A program made the position numbers and the translations under genes. Source: Branchiostoma floridae (lineage: Eukaryota; Chordata; Leptocardii; Amphioxiformes; Branchiostomatidae). From it: 64,000 nucleotides of DNA. This document shows positions 36,535-62,841 of the stretch, piece by piece (within the stretch, counting starts at the first letter, position 1; every line of letters starts with the position of its first letter). The stretch lies in assembly GCF_000003815.2 (NCBI RefSeq), contig NC_049982.1, positions 15,828,966-15,892,965 on the forward strand, in the 5' to 3' direction. The notes under the pieces are model-generated. The model searched no databases, had not been told where the DNA came from, and worked only from the letters and a program-made list of their open reading frames with translations.

Positions 36535-39500
36535 TCACAAGTCAGGTGATGAGAGCCCGTGGCTGTCACGGCGCCGTTTCTGGGACTTCTTGTCCTTCAG
36601 CGTGTTGCGGTCAGTCTTCTGGCGCCGCTTGGTGCTGCGGACTTTGGACTTCTCACTCGGCTGTTTGAAGGTCACGGTATCTGACGTGGACTTCCCCAAT
36701 CTTGTGGTGCCAAACTGCAGCTGGTGTGCATGATGGAGAGAACAAACTGTTAGAGGACTGGAGAGTAGCTGCTACAGTTTCAGCCATTCTGTCTCTGTGA
36801 GGGAAGTTTCACTAGACAATCACTCATTACTCCCTCTGTCATGCAGCAATACACATTATGTCTTTCTTTCCAAGGTTCTTACAACGTTTACTACTAAAGC
36901 AGTTAGAAACATTGTCAATGTAAATACAACACTCACTTGGGGCAACGTTGTTCCCATGTCCTCATCGGAGACGTTGGTTTGGGCAGCAGCAGACATGACA
37001 CCTTTCCCATCTCCTATGGAAGGGAGGCTGACACCTGTAGAAAACAGGATAGATGGTTTGTATTGTCATGTGAGTGTTAAGTGAATACAACCTTTAACAA
37101 TGTACTAGAACTTGAAGTAGAACCATGATGATTGTACAGGCTTTATCTCTACAACTTTTTTTGTCAAAAAGAAAAGAAAATATCTGGGCAATGTTGGTTC
37201 CCACAGTAATTGAACCTTTACTACAAACTCACCAAGTGTTTGAAGGTTGGGTCTGTACACTCACCAGGTGAATGGAGTTTGGTCCCTACAGTACAAAACT
37301 CACCAGGTGTTTAAAATTTGGTCCCTACACTACAAAACTCACCTGGTGTATAAAGTTTGGTCCCTACAGTACAAAACTCANNNNNNNNNNNNNNNNNNNN
37401 NNNNNNNNNNNNNNNNNNNNNNNNNNNNNNNNNNNNNNNNNNNNNNNNNNNNNNNNNNNNNNNNNNNNNNNNNNNNNNNNTGTATGAAGTTTGGTCCCTA
37501 CACTACAAAACTCACCAGGTGTATGAAATTTGGTCCCTACAGTACAAAACTCACCAGGTGTATGAAGTTTGGTCCCTACACTACAAAACTCACCAGGTGT
37601 ATGAAGTTTGGTCCCTACACTACAAAACTCACCAGGTGTATGAAGTTTGGTCCCTACACTACAAAACTCACCAGGTGTATGAAGTTTGGTCCCTACACTA
37701 CAAAACTCACCAGGTGTATGAAGTTTGGTCCCTACACTACAAAACTCACCAGGTGTATGAAGTTTGGTCCCTACACTACAAAACTCACCAGGTGTATGAA
37801 GTTTGGTCCCTACACTACAAAACTCACCTGGTGTATGAAGTTTGGTCCCTACAGTACAAAACTCACTAGGTGTATGAAGTTTGGTCCCTACACTACAAAA
37901 CTCACCAGGTGTATGAAGTTTGGTCCCTACACTACAAAACTCACCTGGTGTATGAAGTTTGGTCCCTACAGTACAAAACTCACTAGGTGTATGAAGTTTG
38001 GTCCCTACACTACAAAACTCACCAGGTGTATGAAGTTTGGTCCCTACAGTACAAACCTCACCAGGTGTATGAAGTTTGGTTCCTACACTACAAAACTCAC
38101 CAGGTGTATGAAGTTTGGTCCCTACAGTACAAAACTCACCAGGTGTTTGAAGTTTGCTCCCCTGCAGAGTCAGTCCAGGATCAGCAGTCAGGCTAGGTAA
38201 GACCAGCCTCTCCTTTCTTGCCTGGTGCCTCTTGTTGGTTGTTTTGCCCTGGATGTTTGTCTTCCTGTGCAGACTGTCTTCATCCCTGCTCTTGCCTGAC
38301 TCCATCATCTCCTCCAGCCCAACTTTTCTGATGTGGTACATCCAATCTTTGGTTGTATCTGTAATGGGTGTGCTGTCCTCTCTGCTGAGGTGTCCAGATT
38401 GCGGGGACGTGCTGTACAGGCTCTGAACTGGACCGTCCTCCTCCACGTCAAGGTCATGCATCACACAGTCCATCGTGGGTGTGTTGTCCACTCTGCCAAG
38501 GTGTCCAGACTGTCGGGACATCTTGTGACACTTCTGTACTCCATCGTCCTCCTCCCAGTCAGGAGTATAGACTCCATCATCTTTTCCCCTCTCCATCGTG
38601 GCTGTGTTACTCACCCTGCTCAGGTGTCCACACTGTGATGATGTGTTACTCTGCACCTGGCCTTCCTCCTCCCAGTCAGGAGTATATAAATACACTTCAA
38701 AATCTTTTCCCCTCTCCATTGTGGATGTATTGCTTACCATGCTGAGGCGTCCAGACTGTGATGTCTTGTTAAATCTGCTGTGTGCTCGACCTTCCTCCTC
38801 CCAGTCAGGGGTATACACCTCATGAGACGTCACACTCATCTTGTCTTGACCAACATTTGCTTGGTTGTTTGGTGACATCTTGACACAAGTTTTCCTCTTC
38901 TTGGTCTTGATGGACTTGGGTTTTGTGTGTAGATCTCCTTCCATCATCTTCTCCATCTCAGCCATCCTGCCGACATTCGTCCCGTCTTCTCCCCTGTTTG
39001 TTGTGGGTGTGAGAGCTCTGGTTTTCTGGTAAGATCTGAATTCTTGGACTATTTCATCCTTCAACTTGAAGTCATCATATTCTGCTGGTGTTGGGCTTCT
39101 CTCCTCATGATGTCCGAGTGAGAATACTTGCTGCTCCTCGACAGTCTTCCTGGAGGTGGGAGGTTTAGCTGGCTTGGGAGCTTTTCTGGTGTTTTTGTCG
39201 ACTCCCATGGAATCTTGTACCTTTTTAATAGTCTCCTTCTTTCTCTTGTAGCGCTCGCTCTCTGACATGTTTTCATTTTCCAGAGAGTCCATCATCATGG
39301 AGATGGGAGCTGGGGTCTTATTACGTCTGGAGGGTCTCCTTGGCTTTGGCTTGCCTTCTCCCATGCAGTCCTGTTTTTGCTGAATGTCTGTTAGCCTTTC
39401 GGCATATTCTTCAAACACCTTTGCATTTTCATCTGGGTGTGTGGGAGTCTTGGCATACCTGTGTAAAGGGAAAAATAAAGAACTATTACTACAAGACATA

Positions 39501-40607
39501 TCTTCAACTTCTTATGAACAGATACTGCTAAAATCAAACCCTTACTACACAGGACAGATGTACATGAAACTTGATACATCACCTGTTGACTGCTGTGAAT
39601 CCACCCTGAGGAACTGGCTGTCTCTTGTTCAGGTTGGTGACCAGGTGCTTTGGTCGTCGGTACCTCGACTCAGGTAGAGGCTGCTTTGGTGGTGAGGGCA
39701 GTGGGACAGGAGACAGTGGGGGTGCGTCCAGGAGAGAGGATGGAGGGACGGCTTCAGGGGTGGGGACGTGGCGACGTCCACGGATGATAGCATTTGTGTA
39801 TTTCTGCTGGCGCAGGGCTGGGCTTTCCTTCTTAGAGTTGCTCATGTTGTTTTTTGATACTTAACTACTGAAGGACAAAAGAAAAAATCTCAAGAATGGC
39901 TGAAGGAATCTTGTCTTATTAGCTGATATGGCTTCTAAAAGTAATCATTAAGTCCAGCATACAATTAAAGAATGTAGTTCACTATAGTTTACACATGGGA
40001 CACTGATCCAGAAATATCACTCACTCATCAGGGTTTAAAAAAAAACACAGTGGAGGAGGGTACACTATCCAATCAAGATATACTCTATCAAAATAGAATT
40101 TGTTTACTTGTGCACAATAGTTCTTAAGGATTTGTTCATTTGGCGTTCCATATCAAAAGCGCTCACAAATGTCATTAGTGTACGAAATTCCAAGGTGAAC
40201 AGTTACAAAATGTTACCAAGAAATTCATAAAGATCTAACGTTTAACACCAAGCACCTGATTTTAGCCTGATAACTGAGACCCTAAATATCTAGTAATAAA
40301 TACAGGAATACACACAAACTTTCCCCTTAACTATAGTTGAAAATACTTTTATACGACATCTAAATTCTCAACCGTTTCTCCCACCCAGCTGCCGGTGGGA
40401 GGGGGGCGGCTGAAACACGTCCTGGTCAATCCAGTTGTCGCCTCCGGACCAGAGCCGCGCCACAGTTTTACGTTATAGTAACTGGTGTTGGACTTAATAA
40501 ACTTCTTGTGGCTTTTTATACCGATGAACTGTTAAGCATTGATATTTTACACTTCATGATCGCACCCTCCAACTCCAAAGCAGTCATGAATATGAACTTT
40601 ACTTACC
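36535..40607 (-). CDS. Unrecognised Ser/Pro/Lys-rich protein, four coding exons
   Basis: Exons on the minus strand are: a 5' UTR exon ending at 40607 (donor AAG|GTAAGT); 39583-39867 (acceptor tccttcag, ATG at 39845); 38140-39458 (acceptor ctttacacag); 36937-37034 (acceptor ttttctacag); and 36535-36720, ending in TGA at 36535. Phases agree at every junction (2, 1, 0), giving 621 residues if exon 2 ends at the first donor, CCTG|GTGAGT at 38140. The product is hydrophilic, basic and low-complexity, with a Pro-rich N-terminus, a short helical segment near residues 97-120, four acidic repeats of 38-43 residues at about 303-459 with Y-T-P-D-W-E-E-E-G and S-G-H-L-S-R modules, and a very basic C-terminus. 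No signal peptide, membrane segment or known domain is seen; a disordered scaffold or nuclear protein is possible, but I do not recognise the family. The TGA overlaps a donor-like GTGAGT; splicing to an acceptor at 35936 would add a 36-residue tail ending at 35825. Confidence 0.72.
37218..38155 (-). repeat. 39-bp minisatellite carrying repeated 5' splice sites
   Basis: About 17 units right of the N gap and at least 4 more degenerate units left of it repeat every 39 bp, exactly 13 codons. On the minus strand each unit reads (T-P-G/S-E-F-C-S/T-V-G-T-K-L-H), and each contains CCTG|GTGAGT or CCTA|GTGAGT, a consensus splice donor. The first unit is the real exon end of the host gene. Units left of the gap include an in-frame TAA at 37311-37313. 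The frame is open through the array, so the array may be intronic or partly exonic. Confidence 0.92.
37381..37480. other. Assembly gap (100 N) inside the minisatellite
   Basis: Exactly 100 N, a usual placeholder for an unknown length. The true copy number of the 39-bp array is therefore unknown. Confidence 1.
38345..38815 (-). repeat. Four internal protein repeats of the unknown gene
   Basis: Within exon 2, a unit of 38-43 codons is repeated four times. The first three start with Y-T-P-D-W-E-E; all contain S-G-x-L-S/G and a later N/S-T-x-T/I motif. The fourth has lost the Y-T-P-D-W start. Divergence at the DNA level is moderate, so the duplication is older than the neighbouring 39-bp array. 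Confidence 0.85.
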
Positions 40608-60415: not shown

Positions 60416-60427
60416 CACCATAAACAT

Positions 60428-62841
60428 AGGAAGCGGACCATCCAAGTTTTACATGTAGGCAGTGTAGTTTTGTAGAAATTCTACACATTTCTACAATGGT
60501 TCCTGTAGACATTTGTAGTGATGTAGAAATCCTACATAATTCTACACTTGTCACTGTAGATATTTGCAGAGGGGGACACAGGAAGCGGACCATCCAAGTT
60601 TGACATGTAGGCAGTGTAGTTTTGTAGAAATTCTACACATTTCTACAATGGTTCCTGTAGACATTTGTAGTGATGTAGAAATCCTACACATTTCTACACT
60701 TGTCACTGTAGATATTTGTAGAGAGGGACACAAGAAGCGGACCATCCAAGTTTAACATGTAGGCAGTGTAGTTTTGTAGAAATTCTACACATTTCTACAA
60801 AGGTTCCTGTAGACATTTGTAGTGATGTAGAAATCCTACACATTTCTACACTTGTCACTGTAGATATTTGTAGAGAGGGACACAGGAAGCGGACCATCCA
60901 AGTTTGACATGTAGGCAGTGTAGTTTTGTAGAAATTCTACACATTTCTACAATGATTCCTGTAGACATTTGTAGTGATGTAGATATCCTACACATTCCTA
61001 CACTTGTCACTGTAGATATTTGTAGAGAGGCACACAGGAAGCGGACCATCCAAGTTTGACATGTAGGCAGTGTAGTTTTGTAGAAATTCTACACATTTCT
61101 ACAATGGTTCCTGTAGACATTTGTAGTGATGTATAAATCCTACACATTTCTACACTTGTCACTGTAGATATTTGTAGAGAGGCACACAGGAAGCGGACCA
61201 TCCAAGTTTCACATGTAGGCAGTGTAGTTTTGTAGAAATTCTACACATTTCTACAATGATTCCTGTAGACATTTGTAGTGATGTAGAAATCCTACACATT
61301 CCTACACTTGTCACTGTAGATATTTGTAGAGAGGCACACAGGAAGCGGACCATCCAAGTTTGACATGTAGGCAGTGTAGTTTTGTAGAAATTCTACACAT
61401 TTCTACAATGGTTCCTGTAGACATTTGTAGTGATGTATAAATTCTACACATTTCTACACTTGTCACTGTAGATATTTGTAGAGAGGGACACAGGAAGCGG
61501 ACCATCCAAGTTTAACATGTAGGCAGTGTAGTTTTGTAGAAATTCTACACATTTCTACAAAGGTTACTGTAGACATTTGTAGTGATGTAGAAATCCTACA
61601 CATTTCTACACTTGTCACTGTAGATATTTGTAGAGAGGGACACAGGAAGCGGACCATCCAAGTTTGACATGTAGGCAGTGTAGTTTTGTAGAAATCCTAC
61701 ACATTTCTACAATGGTTCCTGTAGACATTTGTAGTGATGTAGAAATCCTACACATTTCTACACTTGTCACTAGATATTTGTAGAGAGGGACACAGGTAGC
61801 GGATCATCCAAGTTTCACATGTAGGCAGTGTAGTTTTGTAGAAATCCTACACATTTCTACAATGGTTCCTGTAGACATTTGTAGTGATGTAGAAATCCTA
61901 CACATTTTTACACTAGTCACTGTAGATATTTGTAGAGAGGAACACAGGAAGCGGACCATCCAAGTTTGACATGTAGGCAGTGTAGTTTTGTAGAAATTCT
62001 ACACATTTCTACAAGATTCCTGTAGACATTTGTAGTGATGTAGAAATCCTACACATTTCTACACTAGTCACTGTAGATATTTGTAGAGAGGCACACACGC
62101 AAGCGGACCATCCAAGTTTGACATGTAGGCAGTGTAGTTTTGTAGAAATTCTACACATTTCTACAATGGTTCCTGTAGATATTTGTAGAGAGGGACACAG
62201 GAAGCGGACCATCCAAGTTTTACATGTAGGCAGTGTAGTTTTGTAGAAATTCTACACATTTCTACAATGGTTCCTGTAGACATTTGTAGTGATGTAGAAA
62301 TCCTACACATTTCTACACTTGTCACTGTAGATATTTGTAGAGAGGGACACAGGAAGCGGGCCATCCAAGTTTCACATGTAGGCAGTGTAGTTTTGTAGAA
62401 ATTCTACACATTTCTACAAGATTCCTGTAGACATTTGTAGTGATGTAGAAATCCTACACATTTCTACACTAGTCACTGTAGATATTTGTAGAGAGGCACA
62501 CAGGAAGCGGACCATCCAAGTTTGACATGTAGGCAGTGTAGTTTTGTAGAAATTCTACACATTTCTACAATGGTTCCTGTAGATATTTGTAGAGAGGGAC
62601 ACAGGAAGCGGACCATCCAAGTTTTACATGTAGGCAGTGTAGTTTTGTAGAAATTCTACACATTTCTACAATGGTTCCTGTAGACATTTGTAGTGATGTA
62701 GAAATCCTACACATTTCTACACTTGTCACTGTAGATATTTGTAGAGAGGGACACAGGAAGCGGACCATCCAAGTTTCACATGTAGGCAGTGTAGTTTTGT
62801 AGAAATTCTACACATTTCTACAATGGTTCCTGTAGACATTG
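60428..62841 (+). repeat. 152-bp satellite array, about 17 units
   Basis: The anchor aggcagtgtag recurs 17 times, mostly exactly 152 bp apart (60456, 60609, 60761, 60913 and so on to 62784). Each unit contains the palindrome TGTAGAAATTCTACA and a second imperfect one (tgtagaaatcctaca..tttctaca). From about 62100, shortened 101-bp units appear at 62127 and 62531, creating a higher-order repeat of 404 bp (101+152+151). Units are highly similar, so amplification is recent or homogenised. Minus-strand frames across the units are a by-product. Confidence 0.96.

Follow-up and report, generated by a model that had tools for sequence, protein, structure and literature searches.

A 39-bp array of in-phase 5' splice sites at an exon-intron boundary in Branchiostoma floridae, probably an amphioxus mirage

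A four-exon gene with a tandem array at its second donor

The stretch analyzed (the window; 64,000 nucleotides, C4:15828966-15892965) belongs to a Branchiostoma floridae assembly of 513 Mb in 431 contigs and contains a minus-strand gene, copy A, of four exons with standard splice signals, whose joined frame runs uninterrupted for 621 aa (Table 1). Exons 1 and 2 gave no Pfam match, and the ASH domain PF15780, considered for exon 4, was rejected at 19.5 and 22.9 bits, below the cut-off of 27; the gene is therefore left unnamed. A search of the open-licence literature, for which there was no gene name to query, returned no paper on the 39-bp array. At 60424-62840 the window also carries a minisatellite with units of about 152 bp in 11.6 copies, together with further overlapping arrays.

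Table 1. Features of gene copy A and of the array in its intron 2 (window positions)
Feature	Position	Strand	Basis or remark
Exon 1, coding from ATG	39583-39845	minus	Joined open frame, kept in 5/5 gene copies
Exon 2, ends ...ACACCTG, phase 1	38140-39458	minus	Joined open frame, window sequence
Exon 2 tail, a partial repeat unit	38140-38161	minus	20-22 nt unit match in the 4 C4 copies; 7 nt in the C13 copy
Natural (first) 5' splice site GTGAGT	38134-38139	minus	GT at 38139 is the exon 2 donor
39-bp donor array, 17 donors, single phase, uninterrupted	37481-38139	minus	TRF, unit scan, frame check
Assembly gap of 100 N within the array	37381-37480	.	Run of N in the window sequence
Distal, degenerating array end; donors 37342, 37303, 37264, 37232	37222-37380	minus	TRF, unit scan
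TAA in the unit reading frame	37311-37313	minus	Window sequence; the gap lies between it and the 17-donor run
Exon 3, acceptor TTTTCTACAG/GTGTCAGCC	36937-37034	minus	98% identity in the 3 other C4 copies, 85% in the C13 copy
Exon 4, contains the stop codon	36535-36720	minus	Sub-threshold match to ASH domain PF15780

Read in the sense of the gene, 39-bp units extend from the exon 2 donor (38139) to about 37222. TRF assigned 17.5 copies with 96% matches to 37481-38161 and 3.1 copies to 37259-37380. Before the gap, 17 in-phase GTRAGK donors, one of them GTGAGG, succeed one another at 39-nt steps from 38139 to 37515, and these visible donors allow 0 to 16 extra units. The unit scan counted 20 units in copy A, a figure that covers visible units only because of the 100-N gap inside the array. 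The donor contexts of these 20 (slash at the exon-intron junction) were CTG/GTGAGT in 13, CAG/GTGAGT in three, CTA/GTGAGT in two, and CTG/GTGAGG and TTG/GTGAGT in one each. A first-pass annotation of this DNA had described 39-bp units carrying donors from the natural end of exon 2, in phase with the next exon, and both the unit scan and TRF agree. Exons 2, 3, and 4 join in one frame, so that its claims about the natural exon end and the phase hold, and membership of exons 3 and 4 in the same gene, on which its proposal depended, is confirmed by a joined frame kept in 5/5 gene copies. The TAA of the unit register also lies where it had been placed. The annotation allowed 0 to about 18 or more extra repeats ahead of that stop; the 17 donors before the gap account for 0 to 16, but the gap precedes the TAA.

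The gene is present in five copies: A in the window, B, C, and D (L009, L010, and L011; C4 near 16.1 Mb), and E on C13 (L012). With the first donor, the joined four-exon frame is open in all five, E being modeled to its last aligned codon (in its sequence a TAA comes after seven further codons). The dN/dS ratios by exon were 0.05-0.68 in all comparisons but one, exons 3+4 of B and C, where 1.59 was obtained from very few changes. Each copy carries the array at the same exon 2 donor, and it must therefore predate the copies or have passed between them. By scan, the arrays contain 20 (A, gapped), 59 (B), 13 (C), 20 (D), and 26 (E) units; among the copies the exons have diverged far less than the array has varied in length, and the gap-free paralogs bear out rapid change in copy number. 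Collapse or mis-joining of the repeat during assembly, which the gap inside the A array might bring to mind, is extremely improbable given gap-free arrays in four paralogs, each between exons 2 and 3 of an open gene.

Three further observations concern the unit and its surroundings. At about 6043-6411 of L009, an insertion of ∼370 bp interrupts the donor array; its ends look inverted by eye, and it is perhaps a small transposon. A lone unit lies outside any array at C4:16368178-16368219 (L013; 98% identity over 42 bases), and at C3:31916604-31916767 (L014 4905-5068) a 40-bp unit carrying CCTGGTGAGTTTT or CCTGGAGAGTTTT is repeated 4.1 times and weakly resembles the 39-bp one (70% over 153 bases). 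A tblastn search of L013 and L014 with the proteins of A and E (E 1e-3) revealed no trace of the gene. Exon 2 of copy E contains two coding arrays, both homogeneous and in frame (72 bp x 10.8 and 48 bp x 14), which were not seen in the translated C4 copies.

The exon 2 tail was aligned with the repeat unit. In the four C4 copies it scored 32-39, compared with 14-19 for the best other 45-mers of exon 2, which speaks against a chance match. In the C13 copy the same test gave a 7-nt match with a score of 14, lower than the best other 45-mer (18), and a boundary duplication is not visible there. The proposal that the array grew by duplication of the exon-intron boundary itself is thus supported by the 20-22 nt tail match of the C4 copies. 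Amphioxus mirages (see last section) are recognized by a repeat unit that crosses the exon-intron boundary, which was found in the four C4 copies (the C13 copy shares 7 exon nt), and by splice signals within the repeats, which are present. Several in-phase donors at the exon end, the arrangement known from human IFI6, occur in the four C4 copies and not in the C13 copy.

Reading frame, donor strength, and conservation of the units

Splicing was carried out in silico at every GTRAGK site of intron 2 in each gene copy. The normal C-terminus was kept with all 17 donors judged in A (21 sites, four of which lie past the gap), 34/60 in B, 11/12 in C, and 6/21 in D, but with 1/29 in E. An in-frame TGA is present in the first unit of E, and its other 28 donors produce a stop more than 50 nt upstream of the final junction, which usually triggers nonsense-mediated decay; the E gene should therefore need the first donor. 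Units of 38 or 40 nt, which shift the frame, are included in the arrays of B, C, D, and E. The claim that each unit is open accordingly holds for the 17-donor run of A and fails in E.

That the C4 arrays are open argues little for function, since a stop arises from only three of the 117 single changes possible in the unit; for the 18 distinct changes in C4 units, the chance of seeing zero stops is 0.63. These 18 comprise 13 nonsynonymous, 5 synonymous, and 0 stop changes (vs 87, 27, and 3 possible), and the distinct changes in E units comprise 8 nonsynonymous, 2 synonymous, and 1 stop. In neither the C4 copies nor E do the distinct changes point to coding constraint on the units.

Pairing with the U1 5' end was calculated for the donors. 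CTG/GTGAGT, the sequence of the first donor, scored -8.9, CAG/GTGAGT -11.9, and the gene's other donors -5.4 to -8.2; the few weaker unit donors were CTA/GTGAGT (-5.4), CTG/GTGTGT (-4.4), and CTG/ATGAGT (-2.3). The common later donors are thus as good as or better than the first, so donor strength cannot explain why the first should win, and this counts against normal splicing at that site.

These properties bear on the idea that several in-phase donors are used, such that each C4 gene makes a series of proteins, from no added 13-residue repeat up to n of them, that varies with array length. The strong U1 pairing of most unit donors and the many donors of A, B, C, and D that keep the normal C-terminus speak for it, as do the two in-frame coding arrays in exon 2 of E, which imply that inserts are tolerated in the gene family, and the precedent of human IFI6 in the portion of the literature covered (PMC4526556). 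The closed C13 array, units without coding constraint, and the frame-shifting units of B, C, D, and E speak against it, as do the amphioxus mirages, which are said in excerpted accounts to splice regularly (PMC3087553, PMC3902484), and a similar array in the gene of a dynein motor, in which added repeats would break a conserved stretch. On balance, we regard regular use of several donors as unlikely.

Per-column and unit-identity figures were taken from 111 of the 138 units (N-free units of 39 nt, excluding the final one in every array). GTGAGT or GTAAGT is retained in 134 of the 138 units of the five gene copies. Extra conservation of the donor was sought at positions +1 to +6, which took 3 of 28 distinct changes against 4.3 expected, not clearly fewer, and at columns -3 to +6, which took 7 against 6.5 expected and show no extra conservation.

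Repeat units from C13 and from C4 are closer to each other than are the flanking exons and introns. Unit identity between the C13 array and the C4 arrays is 0.913-0.941, near the 0.938-0.960 found within arrays, whereas introns 1 and 3 are 0.737-0.788 identical and dS is 0.22-0.40. No fixed difference between C13 and C4 units was found in the 39 columns. At a site divergence of 0.25, 0/39 fixed columns has P ∼1e-5 and at most one ∼2e-4; at 0.21, these values are 1e-4 and 1e-3. The likeness hints at exchange between contigs or at a constrained unit, and normal splicing at the first donor leaves it unexplained; because E is closed to translation, protein constraint would not be the cause there. 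Maintenance of the units for a noncoding role at the RNA or DNA level, such as a cluster of U1-binding sites or a switch that regulates splicing, would account for the C13-C4 likeness and the retention of donor hexamers. Exchange between arrays would produce equal likeness, however, conservation of the donor columns does not exceed that of the other columns, and three units (37600-37716) fold no better than shuffles, being weaker than these as RNA (z 1.90) and like them as DNA (z 0.72). Such a role therefore seems very improbable.

Donor arrays across the genome

A pattern of three CAGGTGAGT motifs spaced 14-44 bases apart gave 459+528 = 987 placements genome-wide, compared with 0+0 for the control; the figure counts placements, several per array, includes a dispersed 50/51-bp family, and has the reversed pattern as its only control. 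The corresponding CAGGTAAGT pattern gave 27+22 placements (control 0+0), and CAGGTGAGT arrays thus exceed CAGGTAAGT arrays ∼20-fold (987 vs 49 placements) though both are good donors. An initial GTGAGT pattern was set aside because its placements (11942+12408, against 12230+12753 in the control) were swamped by GAGT simple repeats and are no evidence alone. The dispersed 50/51-bp family occurs on C1 and C2 (e.g., C1:29239917 and C2:29656161), with a unit containing CAGGTGAGTAA and often an acceptor-like ACAG stretch.

Ten arrays were sampled: nine of the ten non-dispersed arrays among the C1-C2 matches listed, as counted by eye, plus C1:261497, taken from the placements of the initial GTGAGT pattern; the sample omits C1:8671280 and the dispersed 50/51-bp family. 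Their periods are 43, 39, 23, 39, 35, 25, 31, 51, 38, and 35 bp, of which three are multiples of three. Recognizable exon ends lie at the array in six of the ten, in one of these one unit upstream. The six comprise a dynein AAA_7 exon (L015), an axonemal dynein heavy chain (L016, matched to PDB sequences with no Pfam match), a TALPID3 exon (L017), PDCD7 (L022, exactly at the Pfam cut-off), an endophilin BAR domain (L023), and the Helicase_C of CHD1 (L024), the last two below the Pfam cut-off with PDB matches. In L024 the exon ends at a GTAAGG donor one unit upstream of the first GGTGAGT. No open frame of at least 25 codons was found ahead of the array in L019 or L021, and the frame scanned in L018 and in L020 gave no protein match. 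In the other eight arrays, 17 frames were listed and 8/17 were scanned, one per array, chosen by eye. Boundary arrays thus occupy real donors in several unrelated conserved genes.

The array in L016 (C1:261471-263078; L016 3972-5579) has an in-phase 39-bp unit in 40.8 copies with 305 open codons. Joining its first donor to the next acceptor yields LSHGSDPAAQ, which is ungapped at the junction in both of the alignments inspected, among 28 dynein-like matches listed. Since the first donor gives ungapped dynein, the array would hardly serve length variation there, unless the motor tolerates inserts. The L016 array resembles that of the window gene in its 39-bp unit over an exon end and donor, in its phase, and in its long open frame; unlike the window gene, its protein is conserved, the first donor gives ungapped sequence, and later donors would add 13 residues each. 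The first-pass annotation thought a protein length series possible; the reading of the array as a device for protein length is disfavored by this ungapped dynein and by the seven of ten sampled periods that are not multiples of three, as it is by the stop in unit 1 of E and the units without coding constraint.

The 987 versus 0 placements, together with the six of ten sampled arrays at recognizable exons, suggest a far greater abundance of boundary minisatellites in this genome than the few published cases would indicate. Their abundance bears on intron gain and on the birthplaces of minisatellites.

Interpretation and comparison with known systems

We conclude that the array is probably an amphioxus mirage whose gene is normally spliced at the first donor, a reading based on the C13 copy, the dynein array, and the published cases, as far as excerpts of them go (PMC3087553). 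Tandem duplication of 39 bp straddling the end of exon 2 and the start of intron 2 (∼22 nt of exon and ∼17 nt of intron in the C4 copies) would have given rise to the array, whose later growth and shrinkage probably came from slippage or unequal exchange. In 5/5 copies the first donor is intact, and the array lies downstream of it. If the spliceosome normally takes the exon-proximal donor, the whole array would leave with intron 2; the array would then be tolerated because copying the boundary does not take away a functional one. If a later donor were taken now and then, the protein would gain 13 residues with each step in the C4 copies, and in the C13 copy a premature stop would follow. Besides the strength of the later donors, the four of ten sampled arrays with no recognizable exon count against this reading, as does the use of later donors reported for IFI6 in the part of the account covered (PMC4526556).

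It is conceivable, though doubtful, that the near-identical C4 donors are used in a graded manner, which would yield a protein ladder with 13-residue steps that array length would tune, with differences among paralogs and among animals, while leakage in the C13 copy would lead to nonsense-mediated decay, with array length setting expression. A protein ladder in the C4 copies is likewise a tentative prospect. If graded donor use were real, the abundance of donor arrays suggested by the pattern counts would make it a general form of splicing variation in the lineage. Classic minigene work asked which of two equal 5' splice sites gets chosen. The loci described here are natural ones, carrying roughly 13 to 59 almost identical donors spaced 39 nt apart; the frame is open in some and closed in one, and the gene of a dynein motor has a similar array. 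Invariable use of the first donor would mean that position prevails over donor strength; otherwise, a protein ladder exists.

Mirages, as described in excerpts of the published accounts, are tandem repeats, resembling minisatellites, of an exon-intron boundary found in the amphioxus genes Adh3, BflGb6, BflGb9, and TnC, with similar repeats in PGBD5; they have many copies with splice signals, are unstable in length, and were proposed as a source of new introns (PMC3087553, PMC3902484). By the same accounts they leave regular splicing undisturbed, for which Adh3 data and globin RT-PCR are cited, although the extra signals could serve as cryptic sites (PMC3087553, PMC3902484). The array described here is like the mirages in these excerpts in being a boundary-spanning tandem repeat with splice signals in its copies in a lancelet gene. 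It differs from them in its 39-bp unit, open in the C4 copies with donors in phase with the next exon, and in its 13 to 59 units by scan in five gene copies, which are known from their sequences. It is probably a new, unusually long, in-phase case among mirages. The minisatellite unit of human IFI6 is 12 bp. Two downstream repeat units of that minisatellite (gene 6-16, G1P3) are used as donors, giving three mRNA species, according to the part of the account covered (PMC4526556, citing Turri 1995). IFI6 is another gene in another lineage, and use of its later donors has been reported, whereas here the donors are read from the DNA; what the two share, as far as that account goes, is a minisatellite that supplies several donors.
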